DNA of 64,000 nt from Methanomicrobium sp. W14 (GTDB lineage Archaea > Halobacteriota > Methanomicrobia > Methanomicrobiales > Methanomicrobiaceae): assembly GCF_017875315.1 (NCBI RefSeq), contig NZ_JAGGMM010000002.1, positions 310,001-374,000 of the forward strand, in the 5' to 3' direction. The first letter of the stretch is position 1; every line of letters starts with the position of its first letter. A program made the translations under genes and the position numbers. Positions 11,746 through 35,954 of this stretch are shown in pieces. Below the pieces are notes generated by a model. The model saw only the letters and a program-made list of their open reading frames with translations, searched no databases and was not told the origin of the DNA.

Positions 11746-13023
11746 ATGCTTGAACTTAAATTCATTCGCAATAATCCTGACGTCGTAAAAGCTGATCTTA
11801 GGAAAAGGGGTGATCTGGAGAAGCTTTCGTGGATTGACGACCTTTTGGAGAAGGACAAAAAGTCGCGCGAGATGCAGACCGGAATCAATGCGATGCGCAA
11901 CCGCCGCAATGTCATAAGCCGGGATATCAAGGAAGCCAGAAAGGAGAAGAAGGACATTTCCGGTCTTCTTGATGAGGCAAAGACACTGCCTGCAAAAATC
12001 AAGGCAGACGAGGAGCAGCTTTCGGAGATAAACGGGAAGATTAAGTACTACCGCATGAGAATCCCCAATATCCTTCACGAGAGCGTACCCGTGGGAAAGG
12101 ACGACACCGAAAATGTCGAGGTCAAAAAATGGGGAAAGCCGAAGGAGTTTTCATTTGAACTGAAAAACCACGGTGAACTTGTCGTCGAAAAAGGCCTTGC
12201 CGAGTTTGAGAGGGCTGCAAAGATTGCCGGCGCCGGATTTTACATGCTCAAGGGAAACCTTGCGATAATGGACATGTCTCTTCAGCGCCTTGCGGTAGAT
12301 ATGCTTGTAAAACGCGGCTATACTCCTGTCATACCCCCGTATATGATGAACCGCAAAGCCTACGAGGGTGTTACCGACCTTGCCGATTTCGAGAACGTGA
12401 TGTACAAGATAGACGGCGAGGACGAATTTCTTATTGCGACAAGCGAGCACCCCATGGCTGCAATGTACATGGACGAAATTTTCGAGGAGAAAGACCTGCC
12501 GATAAAGCTTGCCGGGATAAGCCCGTGCTTCAGGCGCGAGATCGGTTCGCACGGCCTTGATACGAGAGGGCTTTTCAGGGTCCACCAGTTCAACAAGGTT
12601 GAGCAGTTCATATACTGCAAGCCCGAGGACTCGTGGAATATGCACGCCGAACTTTTGAAAAACGCCGAAGACTTTTTCCAGGCGCTTAAGCTCCCCTATC
12701 ATGTCGTAAACATATGCACAGGTGATATCGGAACGGTTGCGGCGAAAAAGTATGACATCGAGGTGTGGATGCCGCGTGAAAATGCATACCGCGAGGTCGT
12801 TTCGTGCTCAAACTGCACTGCGTACCAGTCCGTAAGGCTTAACATAAGGGCAAGGGACCCGCACGACTTCGAGAACAAGTACTTTGTGCACACACTGAAC
12901 AGTACTGCCGTGGCGACTACAAGGACACTTCGTGCAATTCTTGAAAACTACCAGGAAGAGGACGGAACGGTTGTCATACCCGAGGTCTTAAGGCCTTATA
13001 TGAACGGCGCAGAGACTCTTTAA
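11746..13023 (+). CDS. serS: Seryl-tRNA synthetase (bacterial type)
   Basis: The 425-residue enzyme has the N-terminal coiled-coil arm (about 25-105) that grips the long variable arm of tRNA-Ser. The class II catalytic core carries motif 2 (CFRREIGSHGLDTRGLFRVH) and motif 3 (STAVATTRTLRAILENYQ). It charges tRNA-Ser with serine. It is the common type, not the rare methanogen-specific SerRS of Methanococcales and Methanobacteriales, which supports placement in Methanomicrobia. An AAAGGAAGTT leader precedes the ATG, and a hairpin terminator follows. Confidence 0.95.
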   Translation: MLELKFIRNNPDVVKADLRKRGDLEKLSWIDDLLEKDKKSREMQTGINAMRNRRNVISRDIKEARKEKKDISGLLDEAKTLPAKIKADEEQLSEINGKIKYYRMRIPNILHESVPVGKDDTENVEVKKWGKPKEFSFELKNHGELVVEKGLAEFERAAKIAGAGFYMLKGNLAIMDMSLQRLAVDMLVKRGYTPVIPPYMMNRKAYEGVTDLADFENVMYKIDGEDEFLIATSEHPMAAMYMDEIFEEKDLPIKLAGISPCFRREIGSHGLDTRGLFRVHQFNKVEQFIYCKPEDSWNMHAELLKNAEDFFQALKLPYHVVNICTGDIGTVAAKKYDIEVWMPRENAYREVVSCSNCTAYQSVRLNIRARDPHDFENKYFVHTLNSTAVATTRTLRAILENYQEEDGTVVIPEVLRPYMNGAETL

Positions 13024-13046
13024 TCAGTTTATCTTTAGAATCAGCG

Positions 13047-13077
13047 GGATGGTTAATCCATCCTGAGTATATTTTTT
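13047..13077 (+). terminator. Hairpin terminator after serS
   Basis: GGATGG (13047-13052), a TTAAT loop and CCATCC (13058-13063) form a perfect stem, followed after 8 bases by TTTTTTT. Confidence 0.6.
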
Positions 13078-13161
13078 TGACAGCCTGAAAAGTCAGACCA
13101 TGTCTTTTCTAAGGTATTTTCATAACCGGTCTTTTGGTATATTGCGTTTTATGAAATTTTT

Positions 13162-13551
13162 TCAGGACATTGAGACGAGAATTTTGTAATAGCTGTTGTT
13201 CCAGTACAGGGCTTTGTGTATATACTTCGAGCTGTTGTTTTTGTCGGCTTCAACGGAATAACGGGATTTTAGTTCATATATTACTCTTCCGGAAACGCCG
13301 GCGGTACTTATGAACCCGCTTTTGTCCGGGTCGGCATTTTCAAAAAGTTTTCTTAACTGCGGATATCTACTGAAGTCGTCATCCGTTAAGTTTACGACCT
13401 GCATCTTCGATGCATTGGCGGCATCGATTTCACTGAGATAAAGCGTTCCCCCGAGGTCCATTGAGGAGATGTACATTATAAGAAATATTCCGGATATTAT
13501 GACTGCTGCAAAAAACAGGACGATTAACAGGGTTTTATATATCTTTTCCAT
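13162..13551 (-). CDS. Small membrane-anchored exported protein, family A
   Basis: The 129-residue protein has one N-terminal transmembrane helix (about 8-29) and an outside domain. It resembles the product of 15947-16339: both have a Val/Ile-rich anchor, then a VVNLTDDDF..YPQLRKLFENAD or IMEINDTFIEETPALKRAFEDG segment, then a short C-terminal strand with NNSYYKIL or NGSLYYTL. I do not recognise a named family or function. It is the last gene of a run of minus-strand exported-protein genes. Confidence 0.65.
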   Translation of the reverse strand: MEKIYKTLLIVLFFAAVIISGIFLIMYISSMDLGGTLYLSEIDAANASKMQVVNLTDDDFSRYPQLRKLFENADPDKSGFISTAGVSGRVIYELKSRYSVEADKNNSSKYIHKALYWNNSYYKILVSMS

Positions 13552-13861
13552 CTTCCCGGATGTCTCCCTTTATTTGTCATGATATCCTCTATAATATATT
13601 TTTTGTTATTTACTGTCCAATGTAAATGTCAGTTGTTTTACAGTGCTGCTGTTTTTATTGCTTCCTGTTTTTTTGGGATCCGGGAAACCGGCAGTAAATT
13701 ACAGGCATGTTCTCCTGAGCTTCAGCCTGAAATATATGAATGAAGCCGTCAGGACAATTGAATATATAGTCCCGTAAAAAACTCTCAGGCTCATTCTGAA
13801 AAGTATCTGACCTTTAAGTATATCTTATGAAAGTTTTTGGTTGGGCCTGCATTTTCGTTTT
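13552..13861. other. Intergenic stretch, AT-rich
   Basis: Apart from the probable minus-strand promoter of the family A gene on the left (CTATAATATATTTTTTG near 13590-13606), I see no gene, repeat or RNA signature here. Confidence 0.4.
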
Positions 13862-14020
13862 TCAACATATTTTGTGGTTCTTTTCGAGGATTCCCAAAAC
13901 TGCCACTGCTAAAACTCCAAGAACTGCAAAGAGAAGCATTATTGCCCACTGGCCTGTCACTGCCCCGTAAAGAACGGCAATTATGGCAATAATAAAAATG
14001 ATCCAGTTATACCTGTCCAT
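13862..14020 (-). CDS. Small two-helix membrane protein (52 aa)
   Basis: An ATG at 14018-14020 opens a 52-residue frame ending at a TGA at 13862-13864. The composition is strongly membrane-like: a first helix WIIFIIAIIAVLYGAVTG, a short turn, a second helix of about 22 hydrophobic residues from AIMLLFAVL, and a charged EKNHK tail. Such a hydrophobic pattern across a whole frame is unlikely by chance. No clear ribosome binding site is seen, so it could be leaderless. The neighbours are also small membrane proteins. Function unknown. Confidence 0.5.
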   Translation of the reverse strand: MDRYNWIIFIIAIIAVLYGAVTGQWAIMLLFAVLGVLAVAVLGILEKNHKIC

Positions 14021-14090
14021 ATTTTATATAATTTTTATCAATGGTAATTATAGATTTCCGTTATAAATCTGAATGTGTAAAAACAAAATT

Positions 14091-14480
14091 TTATTTTCCG
14101 GTGTTCTGCCCGTGTTTCATTTTAAAGGCAAAATACAAGATTATCATGAAAACAAATCCGGCAGGTGTCGTGACGTAACCGTCGCTTAAATAAGCGTTAA
14201 CCTGAGTTATCTGCAGTAAAGCCACAATGAAAAGCCAGATAATGAATCCCGTAATCAGGCCTGATATTTCCCAAAAATCCGTTTTTTCGAAATAGTATAT
14301 CCCTGCAGATACAAATACGGGGATTGCTCCGAGAGTCAGCCAGTTTCCAAAAGGACTTTTAATGGTTAAAATTTCTGCCGGCAAAAACATTCCTGCCACA
14401 TAAATGACTGAAATATACACAAAATAGAACAGAATACCGAGAAGTATCCCGTATGTCCTGTATGTTTTTTCGTTTTTCAT
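14091..14480 (-). CDS. Small integral membrane protein (129 aa)
   Basis: Four hydrophobic segments (about 10-32, 45-62, 72-93 and 105-122) make up most of the protein, with a basic N-terminus and a polar C-terminal tail. I do not recognise a family. It lies 68 bp downstream of the next exported-protein gene on the same strand and may share its transcript. No motif suggests transport or catalysis. Confidence 0.6.
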   Translation of the reverse strand: MKNEKTYRTYGILLGILFYFVYISVIYVAGMFLPAEILTIKSPFGNWLTLGAIPVFVSAGIYYFEKTDFWEISGLITGFIIWLFIVALLQITQVNAYLSDGYVTTPAGFVFMIILYFAFKMKHGQNTGK

Positions 14481-14548
14481 TCAGATTTCTCCTTATTTTT
14501 GTTGCGGTTTTGGTGTTATCAGGACTTTTTTTATGGATTTGCACGTTT

Positions 14549-15013
14549 TTAGTCGCCGCAGTTTGCGATATAGACCGGATATGTGTGGTAGGCTGTTGAA
14601 ACTTCGCATGAGTCATTTATCTGAGCATATATCCTCGTTGGCAGAAGGCAGTCTTTTGGATCAGGGTCATAAGGGTCGAATGTAATCATGGTATAATTCA
14701 TTTTGCATGTCTCAGAGTACTCGTTGCAGTTGTAGTTTGAGAGATTTGATTTTGAAAATGATATCGATTTTATACTGTAGTTTCCAAGCAAATCCATCAC
14801 TTTAGGGTCATTTATTGCAATTTTAAGAGCCTGTGCGTCCGTAAGTTCCATAGTGTTTGTGACATTCTGCGGGCATTTGTCCGGAATGCTCATTGAAGTA
14901 TTATTTTCGTAAACGGAGTTTTTCAAATCTGAGACGGTGTATCCTGCAATTATTCCCAGAAAGAAGACCGCGATAAAAACAATCACTGTTGCCGTTTTAT
15001 CAGTACATTTCAT
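14549..15013 (-). CDS. Membrane-anchored exported protein with conserved cysteines (154 aa)
   Basis: A single N-terminal helix (about 9-27) is followed by an extracytoplasmic domain with many Asn, possible N-glycosylation sites (NNTS, NVTN, NYT) and six cysteines (for example NCNEYSETC and a C-terminal ANCGD). The cysteines could form disulfides outside the cell. A segment with DAQALKIAINDPKVMDLLG resembles a short helical PepSY-like start, but this is weak. Its upstream region shares a TATATTAAAAC promoter with the neighbouring prodomain/protease genes, suggesting coregulation. Function unknown. Confidence 0.6.
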   Translation of the reverse strand: MKCTDKTATVIVFIAVFFLGIIAGYTVSDLKNSVYENNTSMSIPDKCPQNVTNTMELTDAQALKIAINDPKVMDLLGNYSIKSISFSKSNLSNYNCNEYSETCKMNYTMITFDPYDPDPKDCLLPTRIYAQINDSCEVSTAYHTYPVYIANCGD

Positions 15014-15114
15014 AAGTCCCTTGCCTTTTTCTTAAGTTGATTTCTCCCACGGAATATATCACAGTTTTAATATAGACCATTTATTGCACATTTCTCTACA
15101 CGTTTTTTAGCATT

Positions 15115-15735
15115 TCAGTTTGATATCATCCTCAGGACAGAGTATTTAATCCGGTCGATTCTGTTCTCCAAAAAGGATTTCCCCTCATCTATAACGTCAA
15201 CAGACCTGTAGGAAAAGTGAATGACCCTCCCTGATTCTGATTTTTCAGGAGTACTTTCTATGATATAGTTTATGCCGTTTACATTGATTCTTGCAATAAG
15301 CGTATTTTCACTTATGGTAAGGACGATTTCACTCTTTTTTGCGTTGTCCAGGTTTCCGGTGAAAGAAAAGGTCTGCGACACTACGTCTGGTGCATTGACC
15401 CTCATTCTCCCGAGGTTCATCGTGTATGAAGCTCCATCAATTACGACCGGTATTTTTTCGCCGTTTTTGAGCATCTCACGCATTTTTTGCGTGTCAAGTG
15501 TTGATAATTCGTATCTTTCAATAGTATGAGGTATTTTTAGTCCGGATTCATTGACTGGTTCCGTGATTTTTTCCGAAATACCTTCAATGTTTATAATTGA
15601 GAGTTCTGTCGTTTTATCGGAAATGCCTCTGAATATATCATCCTTTGGACCTGTAACAGAAACCAGCACTGCACCTGCTATAAGTAAAACAATAAAAAGC
15701 AGACTTATAACCAGTTCACCGTTTTTGGTTTTCAC
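15115..15735 (-). CDS. Membrane-anchored stand-alone metzincin prodomain
   Basis: The 206-residue protein has one N-terminal helix (about 9-27). Its next 180 residues match the N-terminal half of the protease at 16362-17713: TIERYELSTLDTQKMREML, VVIDGASYTMNLGRM, VNAPDVVSQTFSFTGNL and ARINVNGINYIIESTPEKS. That half looks like the propeptide of adamalysin-like metzincins. No HExxH catalytic domain follows; the frame ends 30 residues after the shared part. It could be a tethered inhibitor or folding helper, or a truncated duplicate. The homology is read directly; the function is inferred. Confidence 0.7.
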   Translation of the reverse strand: MKTKNGELVISLLFIVLLIAGAVLVSVTGPKDDIFRGISDKTTELSIINIEGISEKITEPVNESGLKIPHTIERYELSTLDTQKMREMLKNGEKIPVVIDGASYTMNLGRMRVNAPDVVSQTFSFTGNLDNAKKSEIVLTISENTLIARINVNGINYIIESTPEKSESGRVIHFSYRSVDVIDEGKSFLENRIDRIKYSVLRMISN

Positions 15736-15946
15736 CTGAATCCTGCCCCCTTTGAATTCTTACGAAATCCCGTGTGAAAGGGAATGGTTCCGGCATTAAA
15801 AACCCTGTAATTACGTTTGAACATCACTTAAACACTCATCCTGCTTAAAATAAGCATGGTTTTAATATAAACTTCTTATTGGACATTCATATTACGCATT
15901 GGTTTATGCCGCAAATAAAAAAGGCATTTATATCCCTGTAAAATAT

Positions 15947-16339
15947 TTATGCACAGCCTATTAAAGTGTAATATAGAGAGCCGTTGTACTCAAGCACTTT
16001 CCCGTTCAGGACAGCAGTACTGTTTCGGTCTTCGGAATATATCATTGCAATATGGCCGTCTTCAAATGCACGTTTCAGAGCCGGTGTCTCTTCAATGAAA
16101 GTGTCATTTATTTCCATAATTTCATAGCCTTTATTTATGATATTCTCTCTTGTAGCGTTTTCACCAAAGGTATACTTTTCATCTCCGGCACTTATATTAA
16201 AAAGACTCAGAAAACTCGTTGCAATTTTTTCTTCGTTTACACCTGGAATCGTTATCATGTGTGACATTACCAGGAAGAGCGAAACCAATACCAGCACCAG
16301 AACTATTGCAAAAAATTTTAAAATTTTATTTCTATTCAT
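15947..16339 (-). CDS. Small membrane-anchored exported protein, family A
   Basis: The 130-residue protein has an N-terminal helix (about 8-28) and an outside domain related to the product of 13162-13551 (shared ND..IEETPALKRAFEDGH pattern and C-terminal YNGSLYYTL). It sits directly downstream of the protease gene (22-bp gap) and on the same strand, so it is likely cotranscribed. Predicted N-glycosylation sites (NAT, NDT, NST, NGS) fit surface location. Function unknown. Confidence 0.65.
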   Translation of the reverse strand: MNRNKILKFFAIVLVLVLVSLFLVMSHMITIPGVNEEKIATSFLSLFNISAGDEKYTFGENATRENIINKGYEIMEINDTFIEETPALKRAFEDGHIAMIYSEDRNSTAVLNGKVLEYNGSLYYTLIGCA

Positions 16340-16361: not shown

Positions 16362-17713
16362 TCAGTTTGCATATGATGCAACTATATTTTTTGTTTCATA
16401 AATTCTCAGTGCATTGTTGCAGTAGTAGTCGCCGTGGTAGTCATTTGAAGAGACTTCAAATGTGTTGCTTTTCAGAATAGGTGTCCACATAACAGTTTGT
16501 TTTGTGAAAATCAGATTTTCTGTCCACTGATATGCACGATTATATGATTCCCCCTGTCCCGAACTTTGTTCTCCCTGCTGGTGATCTGCATCAAATATAT
16601 GACCGATTTCATGAATTGTAGCTTTTGCTCTGTCTTCATGAACTCCATCATATGAGGAAGGGTCATCTTTCATCTGAACCCATGCATATCTTCTTTGAAG
16701 TGGATTTGGACAATCATAACCATACGTCGCTGCAATACCTATGTAAGAACTATCGTAACCACCAAGATAGAGAGCAATGTCTTCATGGTTACTGTTCAGA
16801 TATTCTATTGGTACCTGACGAATAATTGAATCACATGGTGATGTTATGTGTTGACTGTCCGATGACAAAGCTGAGGCCTTAGATGTATCGTAATGTGCAT
16901 AAAATCTTATAAATATGTCAGACCTTTGAAATTGGTTGTTTAGCTCTGCAATTATATCCTGAGCTTTAGCCAGCCAGTCAGGTTCATCTGAAATCCATTG
17001 GTTATCTGTAAAAACCCTTATTCTGACTGGGGTTAAACTCTTCGTTGAACTTTTGGAGTTAATTCTCTCTTCTTCGATTTTAGCTTCATCATCTCTCTGT
17101 TTGAGCTCTTCATCTGAATAATATTTATGGGCAAGGTAATCTTCTTCTGTATTTAAGGAACTTCCGTCATCCTTGACGTCGGTAGATCTATGAGAGTAAT
17201 GAATAATTCTTCCAGATTTTGATTTATCAGGCGTACTTTCTATAACGTAGTCAATACCGTTAACATTTATTCTTGCAATTAACACTCTTTCACTTATAGT
17301 AAGAACGACCTCGCTGTCTTTGGTATCTTCAAGGTTTCCAACATATGAGTATGTTTGAGACTTAACGTCAGGTGCATTTACTTCCATCTCACTGAGGTTC
17401 ATTGAGTATGAAACTCCATCAATAGTTACAGGGATTTTTTTATCACTTATCAATAGGTCACGCATTTTTTGGATGTCCAAAGTAAAAAGATCATATTTTT
17501 CAATAGAATCTGGGATATCCAGAGAAGACTTTTCAGTTGTTTCCGGCATTGCCTCAGAAATACCATCGCCAATTTTTATAATTGTCAATTTTTCAGTAAT
17601 GCTGGATATATTTGTATTTTTTCTTCTGCACTGACCGTCGGAACAAAGACCATTCCGATGAGTGCCGCAATCAAAAGCAGGCTTAAAGCCCACATGCCTT
17701 TTCCGGTTTTCAT
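16362..17713 (-). pseudogene. Secreted metzincin metalloprotease, frameshifted after the signal peptide
   Basis: Starting at the ATG at 17713 (GAGGTAAAAA upstream), a clear signal peptide is encoded (MKTGKGMWALSLLLIAALIG to VSAEE). A run of six A (17617-17622, minus strand) then shifts the frame and leads to a stop. One more A would join it to the 400-residue mature frame. That frame has a prodomain (about 45-180) and a catalytic domain with HEIGHIFDADH, a GIAATYGYDCPN segment and a candidate Met-turn TVMWTP. The zinc motif has Asp where metzincins usually have Gly. It could be a true pseudogene, a phase-variable gene or a sequencing error. Confidence 0.75.
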
Positions 17714-17768
17714 TTTTTACCTCTGTTTTGTTTTTTTGAAAATCCGGCATGCAAACTTTAATCTGCAA

Positions 17769-35177: not shown

Positions 35178-35954
35178 TCACGGTACCGGGAGCATGGGGT
35201 CATAGTAGATGTCATCAGATGAGTACACTGCATACAAAATGCCGGATGAATTTTTTGCGGCCTTTGTTGACTGAACCGGCTTTATGTATATCCCGTAGTT
35301 ATTTGCTGATTCCGACTGAAAGTTAACTGAAAAAATAAAATAATCAAAATTTTCATTTGTAAGGTCTCTGGAATAACCTAAAGACAGAATTTTTTCCCCG
35401 GGATAACTGTCGTCGTCAATTAAACCGGAATAGTAGTCCAGACTCCTTTTTGTTTCATTTCTGATTTCATTGCCGTTGAATATCAGATTAACGCTGTATT
35501 TTTTATCTTTAATCCGCACAGGAAGGACTGTGCTGTTGTCCTCTTTAAGCCCGAAATCTTTGAACTCAACAAGGTCACAGGTTGTAACACCGTAAGGGAT
35601 GTAGATTTCACCGTATTTTTCAGTGATGTAGCCGGGAATTGGAAGTGAGGTATTGTATCGTTCTTCTATCACGTTAGTGTACCCTGTGATATCGCATGCT
35701 ATGCCCGGGTTGGCGCTGAAATTTCCGGTTATTTCATAGTTGCCGGGGTTCTGGGAGTCCGGTGCAAAAACCGGTATTTCACCGCAAAGAAAAATAAGTG
35801 CTGAAAAAATTATAATGATGACTGCAAGAGCTATACATGCTACGGTGAGAGCTTTTTCCTGCTCAGTCAATTCCTGTTCGTCTCCCGGAAAAATTCTGGG
35901 TTTGAAAATTTTTCCTGATAAAAATTGAGGATATAATATATTATTTATTCTCAC
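35178..35954 (-). CDS. Membrane-anchored exported protein (258 aa)
   Basis: A single transmembrane helix (about 36-59) follows a short cytoplasmic part containing an EQELTEQEK segment. The remaining 200 residues lie outside and have many Asn/Tyr residues and possible glycosylation sites (NTS, NST, NET, NSS). A central stretch with TVLPVRIKDKKYSVNLIFNG faintly resembles the IPVTIDGVSYSMNL strand of the prodomain at 16-17 kb, but this is weak. No function can be assigned. Confidence 0.6.
   Translation of the reverse strand: MRINNILYPQFLSGKIFKPRIFPGDEQELTEQEKALTVACIALAVIIIIFSALIFLCGEIPVFAPDSQNPGNYEITGNFSANPGIACDITGYTNVIEERYNTSLPIPGYITEKYGEIYIPYGVTTCDLVEFKDFGLKEDNSTVLPVRIKDKKYSVNLIFNGNEIRNETKRSLDYYSGLIDDDSYPGEKILSLGYSRDLTNENFDYFIFSVNFQSESANNYGIYIKPVQSTKAAKNSSGILYAVYSSDDIYYDPMLPVP

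Follow-up and report, generated by a model that had tools for sequence, protein, structure and literature searches.

The closest described counterparts of the protein considered here are the chaperone CpaB and the prodomain of ADAM17. According to the excerpts of the sources cited, CpaB has a single N-terminal membrane segment, is encoded just 3′ of cpaA and is needed for CpaA secretion (PMC4713064); both the secretion and the stability of CpaA depend on it (PMC4713064, PMC7542363), and it has been described as an SRPBCC-type chaperone for type II secretion (PMC4713064). The structure of CpaA with CpaB is available as 6O38, and the same paper reports that the C-terminal tail of CpaB blocks the active site of CpaA and that the complex is secreted once the membrane segment has been removed (PMC7542363). 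For ADAM17, the excerpts describe (i) that the barrel of the prodomain sits on the side of the catalytic domain facing away from the cleft, with an interface of 5,380 Å2, (ii) that the segment preceding C184 enters the cleft and is critical for inhibition, C184 itself being dispensable, and (iii) that the prodomain is needed for the protease's own folding and exit; this prodomain was described there as being without a homologous structure (PMC12184519).

Earlier work has treated ADAM-type prodomains as inhibitors and as zymogen components; in the archaea considered here they appear to have been detached and tethered many times over. Our starting point is a gene in a stretch of 64,000 nucleotides from Methanomicrobium sp. 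W14, hereafter the window.

The locus in the window

The stand-alone prodomain gene occupies positions 15115..15735 of the minus strand and encodes 206 residues, from a GTG start at 15735, preceded about 12 nt 5′ by a GGGGG run resembling a ribosome-binding site, to a stop at 15115. The original prediction had placed a gene at this site with the strand left unstated; the gene is real and lies on the minus strand, the plus-strand translation of 15115-15735 being interrupted by nine stops. Its product had been proposed to match the prodomain of the neighbouring metzincin over some 150 residues, and BLASTP indeed finds 94 of 152 residues identical (62%, E 6e-62), which is far above chance. It had also been said to carry no catalytic domain, and within the window the catalytic-domain HMM matches the protease ORF only. 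When the protease was compared with positions 13000-16000 of the window by tblastn, one N-terminal match in another frame (E 0.003) was obtained beyond the prodomain, all others having E ≥0.78; by both searches, no remnant of a catalytic domain is present in or behind the stand-alone gene.

The product can be divided into a hydrophobic N-terminal anchor (residues 8-29; 15649..15714, minus), assigned from hydropathy and motif only, the prodomain (residues 38-188; 15172..15624, minus), predicted to be a β-barrel, and a C-terminal tail (residues 186-206; 15118..15180, minus), predicted as a helix with partly low confidence, which takes the place of the protease's cleft/switch segment. The membrane anchor that had been predicted is consistent with the hydrophobicity of residues ~8-28 (Kyte-Doolittle 3.2) and with the lack of a VSA-type cleavage motif; here and below, anchors and cleavage sites were called from hydropathy and motifs, not by a trained predictor. 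Since the N-terminus (MKTKNGELVISLLF...) can be aligned to the protease's signal peptide (MKTGKGMWALSLLL...) and is devoid of the VSA motif, we infer that it is probably a signal peptide converted to an anchor. Neither this protein nor the small protein PART introduced below had a usable match in NCBIfam or Pfam. A plasmid-borne locus was considered and set aside, as PLSDB yielded no match.

The metzincin ORF (16362..17768, minus) comprises a prodomain at 17154-17612 and a catalytic domain at ~16368-17144 with the motif HEIGHIFDADH at 16581-16613. Its matches to M12B reprolysin models fall short of the cut-offs, and its modelled catalytic part resembles adamalysins with a Z-score of 16.5 (VIA list, catalytic domain alone); the model of the protease (pLDDT 72, pTM 0.54) is too uncertain for reading an interface. 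The signal peptide (MKTG...VSA; 17627..17713, minus) is not in frame with the prodomain, and an A6 run (17617-17622) is situated between the two. This break may be real or a sequence error (the assembly consists of 6 contigs), and it may imply that the pair of protease and stand-alone prodomain is non-functional in this genome; intact protease copies are present in relatives.

Directly 3′ of the protease and 5′ of the stand-alone prodomain lies the gene of a 130-residue protein (15947..16339, minus) with a small membrane-anchored domain for which we coin the name PART, the gene order being protease, PART, stand-alone prodomain. A second PART gene is found at 13162..13551 (minus), and its two relatives in L126 and L130 adjoin a stand-alone prodomain. 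The window also encodes a second, divergent membrane-anchored prodomain without a protease (35178..35870, minus, TTG start), whose nearest kin in the tree is L130 8858-9559 (100/99). The two genes 3′ of the stand-alone prodomain, 14091-14480 and 14549-15013 (both minus), encode a membrane protein of 129 residues and an anchored protein of 154 residues; small genes like these flank the stand-alone prodomain of L011 as judged by eye.

Resemblance to M12B propeptides and CpaB

The model of the stand-alone prodomain covers 176 of the 206 residues (pLDDT 81.5, pTM 0.79). The top chain found with VIA-align is 6o38_H (Z-score 10.0; 2.5 Å; 106/118 residues), followed by the ADAM17 chains 9o54 (8.1), 8snl (8.0), 9q7y (7.9), 8snm (7.7) and 9o58 (7.7) and thereafter by profragilysins with Z-scores of ~4.8-5.6. 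Judged by their length of 117-130 residues, we read the matched 6o38 chains as CpaB and not CpaA. Foldseek alone gave weak matches, with a best E-value of 4e-3 and values of 4e-3 to 2e-2 for the ADAM17 chains.

The sequence profiles likewise lead to ADAM17: five of its chains rank at the top of the PDB matches for a profile of 32 members devoid of a catalytic domain (A5; best E 8.7e-5), the profile of alignment A10 matches ADAM17 at E 8.2e-6, and a whole-protease profile does so at E 6.8e-10. None of the sequence profiles of prodomain members matched CpaB. With the Pfam model Pep_M12B_propep, the window protein gave no match and only one of the 32 members matched (E 0.13, below the gathering score); this model may be too narrow. 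The similarity in sequence and the predicted β-barrel fold both agree with membership of the M12B propeptide superfamily.

Distribution, architectures and N-termini among relatives

Within the order, the prodomain profile matches 70 of 232 genomes, the catalytic domain 41/232 and PART 69/232 (E ≤0.01). Eighty stretches, located around part of the prodomain-profile matches and around weak matches in the genome itself, were examined by scanning all ORFs with three HMMs. This revealed four architectures: a prodomain with a catalytic domain, a prodomain by itself (mostly 186-300 residues, stop to stop), a prodomain fused to PART (mostly 283-347 residues) and PART by itself. The ORFs number 46 prodomain-catalytic, 30 prodomain-only and 30 fused, with near-identical copies kept and nine ORFs removed that are broken by a frameshift, split, cut or incomplete. 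Conservation in relatives, which the original prediction had put forward as a check, was followed for the pattern: 60 intact prodomain ORFs lacking a catalytic domain, 30 alone and 30 fused to PART, are spread over 39 genomes. An initial scan of the genomes' contigs with the single stand-alone protein as query had given no match. N-extended versions of the prodomain also occur among the relatives.

At the level of the phylum, 71 of 391 genomes and 17 of 136 genera match the prodomain profile, many of these being the genomes of the order again. Beyond the order, a prodomain ORF without a catalytic match is carried by 15 of the 20 stretches examined, which were chosen mostly for short frames, and the N-terminus of many of these ORFs looks hydrophobic or lipobox-like by eye. 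The idea that the protein is unique to this genome is ruled out by the matches in order and phylum. In three stretches from another family of the phylum (L207, L210, L211), the prodomain is followed by a C-terminal part that looks Ig-like by eye, again without a catalytic domain.

The VSA-type cleavage motif is carried by 41 of 46 proteases; of the prodomains lacking a catalytic domain, two among the 30 stand-alone and one among the 30 fused ones have it. At least three intact copies (L088, L135_12836, L145) look cleavable, in addition to six N-extended ones (by eye), and tethering is hence not universal. The N-terminus counts, and equally the orphan counts that follow, leave out L129_5656, L147, L115 and L154 (proteases that are frameshifted or degenerate, or ORFs that are split) and L108, L141_16330 and L148 (cut or incomplete records).

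Among the 39 genomes with stand-alone or fused prodomains, 17 have no match to the catalytic domain (E 1e-3), a count bounded by genome completeness and by the E-value limit; 12 of the 17 are ≥90% complete. Four genomes (G112, G060, G051, G065) contain three to five PART matches each and zero catalytic-domain matches.

Origin and selection

When 65 prodomains were placed in a tree, the 21 stand-alone rows required 12 label changes, at least eight of them forced by well-supported branches, and the fusions required seven, at least three of them forced. These figures include rows that are doubtful or mislabelled, namely L129_5656 and L147 (frameshifted or degenerate proteases), L108 (partial) and L148 (incomplete) among the stand-alone proteins, and L141_16330 among the fusions. 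The tree thus indicates that stand-alone and fused prodomains originated repeatedly. The window copy and its own protease are sisters (99/61) and share a 100/99 clade with an L129 protease. The main fusion clade (seven rows, 99/98) is the sister (97/92) of the L136 and L134 proteases, each of which is followed by a fusion.

Purifying selection in the orthologous sets compared is indicated by their pairwise dN/dS values. The L126/L130 stand-alone pair gives 0.23; ten stand-alone copies from a single genus range over 0.15-0.70 in 45 pairs; three orphans yield 0.19-0.31 in 3 pairs, and six fusions 0.24-0.61 in 15 pairs. For the window copy, which is without a close ortholog, the comparison with its own protease gives a dN/dS of 0.21 at a pS of 0.65, that is, near saturation, so that this figure is no proof of selection on the copy alone. 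A recent truncation of a full-length protease, the counter-case raised along with the original prediction, was judged not to apply, given the missing catalytic remnant, the near-saturated synonymous sites (pS 0.65) and the intact stand-alone copies in relatives. Hence, the recurrent stand-alone prodomains look like kept, working partners of the protease rather than broken copies of it.

Gene neighbourhood and PART

For 41 intact protease genes, the available sequence extends more than 700 nt past the 3′ end (near-identical copies included; loci picked by prodomain matches and not by PART). Behind 36 of them, at a distance of no more than 400 nt and in the same orientation, lies a gene for PART, for a prodomain or for a fusion of the two, and PART is the commonest gene 3′ of the protease. 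In L136, L139, L142, L144 and L134 it is the fusion that occupies the position of PART. According to coordinates, isolated C-terminal catalytic fragments are directly followed by PART in G010, G018, G192 and G011 and twice in G194, and such a fragment is directly followed by a prodomain-PART fusion in G087; at least five other isolated catalytic fragments have no PART recorded beside them. At L127 3801-3971 and L135 9858-10193, isolated metzincin C-terminal fragments have an intact PART directly 3′, as is seen in toxin-immunity arrays. When compared with the PDB by sequence, PART gave nothing better than E 0.11.

Functional interpretation

We suggest, as a reading that we judge equally apt to be right or wrong, that the protein is a detached M12B (ADAM17-type) prodomain which is membrane-tethered, docks in trans on the metzincin catalytic domain and restrains the protease at the surface. 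An uncleaved signal anchor would fix the prodomain copy to the cell membrane so that it faces outward, and the copy would contact the secreted metzincin at that face of the catalytic domain to which the cis prodomain binds. The docked protease would then be kept in check on, or close to, the surface of the cell itself, which would thereby be protected; where a genome has no such protease, the tethered prodomain might confer immunity to the proteases of neighbours. PART may fill the same slot. The reading builds on the observed identity, anchor-like N-terminus, recurrence, selection, neighbourhood and fold resemblance, from which an outward topology, binding, restraint and a protective purpose are extrapolated. 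Points that weigh against it are the loss of the cleft segment from most stand-alone copies, the frame break in the window protease and the copies whose N-terminus looks cleavable. The core of the original prediction, a stand-alone, membrane-tethered prodomain acting in trans on the metzincin, is thereby retained and gains from the conserved pattern, purifying selection, neighbourhood and CpaB match; its interpretation was shifted by the orphan genomes and by PART. With 17 of 39 genomes devoid of a catalytic domain, immunity to foreign proteases is favoured over service to the cell's own protease.

Such service is the essence of a less probable alternative, which we nonetheless take seriously: the protein might be a tethered helper for folding or export which, like CpaB, catches the emerging protease, aids its folding and releases it. 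CpaB being the best structural match, the reported dependence of CpaA on its adjacent, membrane-bound partner speaks for such a helper, as does the reported need of ADAM17 for its prodomain in folding and exit. However, the archaeal proteases already possess a prodomain in cis, and the orphan genomes offer no catalytic domain to fold.

The cleft segment bears on a further alternative, namely that the protein is a docking or retention factor that keeps active protease on the cell surface without inhibiting it. As judged by eye, this segment is retained in just 9 of 30 stand-alone copies, and the window copy has no clear version of it. Hence it is the barrel, that is, the docking part, that is common to all copies, cleft blocking being optional; as the segment before C184 is reported to be critical for inhibition in ADAM17, many stand-alone copies may dock without blocking the cleft. 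That the ADAM17 barrel reportedly binds away from the cleft through a large interface speaks for retention as well. In the linkers of the archaeal proteases, the place of the ADAM17 switch cysteine is taken by Cys in 7 and by Asp in 16 of 31 cases (de-duplicated, by eye); in the window stand-alone copy, a cysteine-switch residue is absent. Retention is also consistent with the commonness of hydrophobic or lipobox-like N-termini, but many orphan genomes have no protease of the family to dock, and we regard it as improbable.

The orphan copies also leave room for a role unrelated to proteases, such as adhesion, ligand binding or sensing, for which the barrel might have been exapted. The N-extended versions and the fusions, be it to PART or to the Ig-like-looking part, would fit such a role, which is difficult to reconcile with stand-alone and fused clades that adjoin particular protease prodomain clades, as do the fusions that are sister to the proteases they follow; we thus consider an exapted barrel to be quite improbable, too. 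Finally, a truncated, decaying protease copy is brought to mind by frameshifted or truncated relatives (L087, L104, L118, L129, L154), but this explanation, rejected for the family, is highly improbable given the intact frames, ortholog dN/dS values well under 1, recurrent architecture, altered N-termini and absence of a catalytic remnant.

On a broader scale, it is conceivable, though rather doubtful, that methanogens conduct conflict or regulation at the cell surface through secreted ADAM-like metzincins, whose prodomain was repeatedly turned into a tethered immunity protein, alone or fused to PART; the orphans would then act against the proteases of rivals, and CpaB would represent a bacterial branch of the same idea of a detached prodomain. 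If the proposed binding is true, the family would provide a natural series of trans-acting metzincin inhibitors or docking proteins, and at the same time a candidate protein-based conflict system of methanogens.

Comparison with known systems

The present analysis connects a large family of archaeal proteins with both the ADAM17 prodomain and the chaperone CpaB, a link that we did not find in the earlier open-licence literature. That literature likewise yielded no metzincin version of a stand-alone propeptide-like inhibitor and no useful paper on halocin C8 immunity, and the excerpts of the 'dark matter' and polymorphic-toxin papers contain no description of this gene set. Families of metallopeptidase toxins are listed in PMC3482391.

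With polymorphic toxin/immunity loci, the archaeal loci share (i) a putative effector gene followed by a small partner gene, a candidate immunity gene adjoining the effector gene in the 36 of 41 cases given above, (ii) partners that are more widespread than the effector, and (iii) 3′-end fragments of the effector followed by an intact partner. In contrast to such loci, neither an RHS domain nor a delivery domain of another type was noted.

The ADAM17 prodomain (M12B, Pep_M12B_propep type) is alike in its sequence profile match and in its fold (Z-scores 7.7-8.1); it is made in cis and then removed, whereas the archaeal one is a separate protein with an anchor-like N-terminus. A domain homologous to a propeptide and encoded without a catalytic domain is what the archaeal family has in common with propeptide-like inhibitors. 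According to the excerpts available, SUB1-ProM of Plasmodium is a subtilase propeptide domain without a protease, encoded beside subtilase genes, that inhibits SUB1, and CTLA-2alpha, crammer and BCPI of the I29 family (cathepsins) are propeptide domains encoded without their protease. Both belong to other protease classes, however, and in these excerpts a membrane tether is not described for them.

CpaB of Acinetobacter offers the closest fold found and resembles the archaeal protein, as far as the excerpts describe it, in its single N-terminal anchor, its stand-alone nature and the location of its gene beside that of a secreted metzincin; in the window, one PART gene sits between the stand-alone prodomain and the protease. 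CpaB is not described in these excerpts as a prodomain copy, and, unlike in its case, the archaeal protease retains its own, 62%-identical copy in cis, the detached copies arose repeatedly, and orphans exist. Propeptide-like inhibitors and CpaB are thus the known kind to which the tethered, detached metzincin prodomain adds a new variation.
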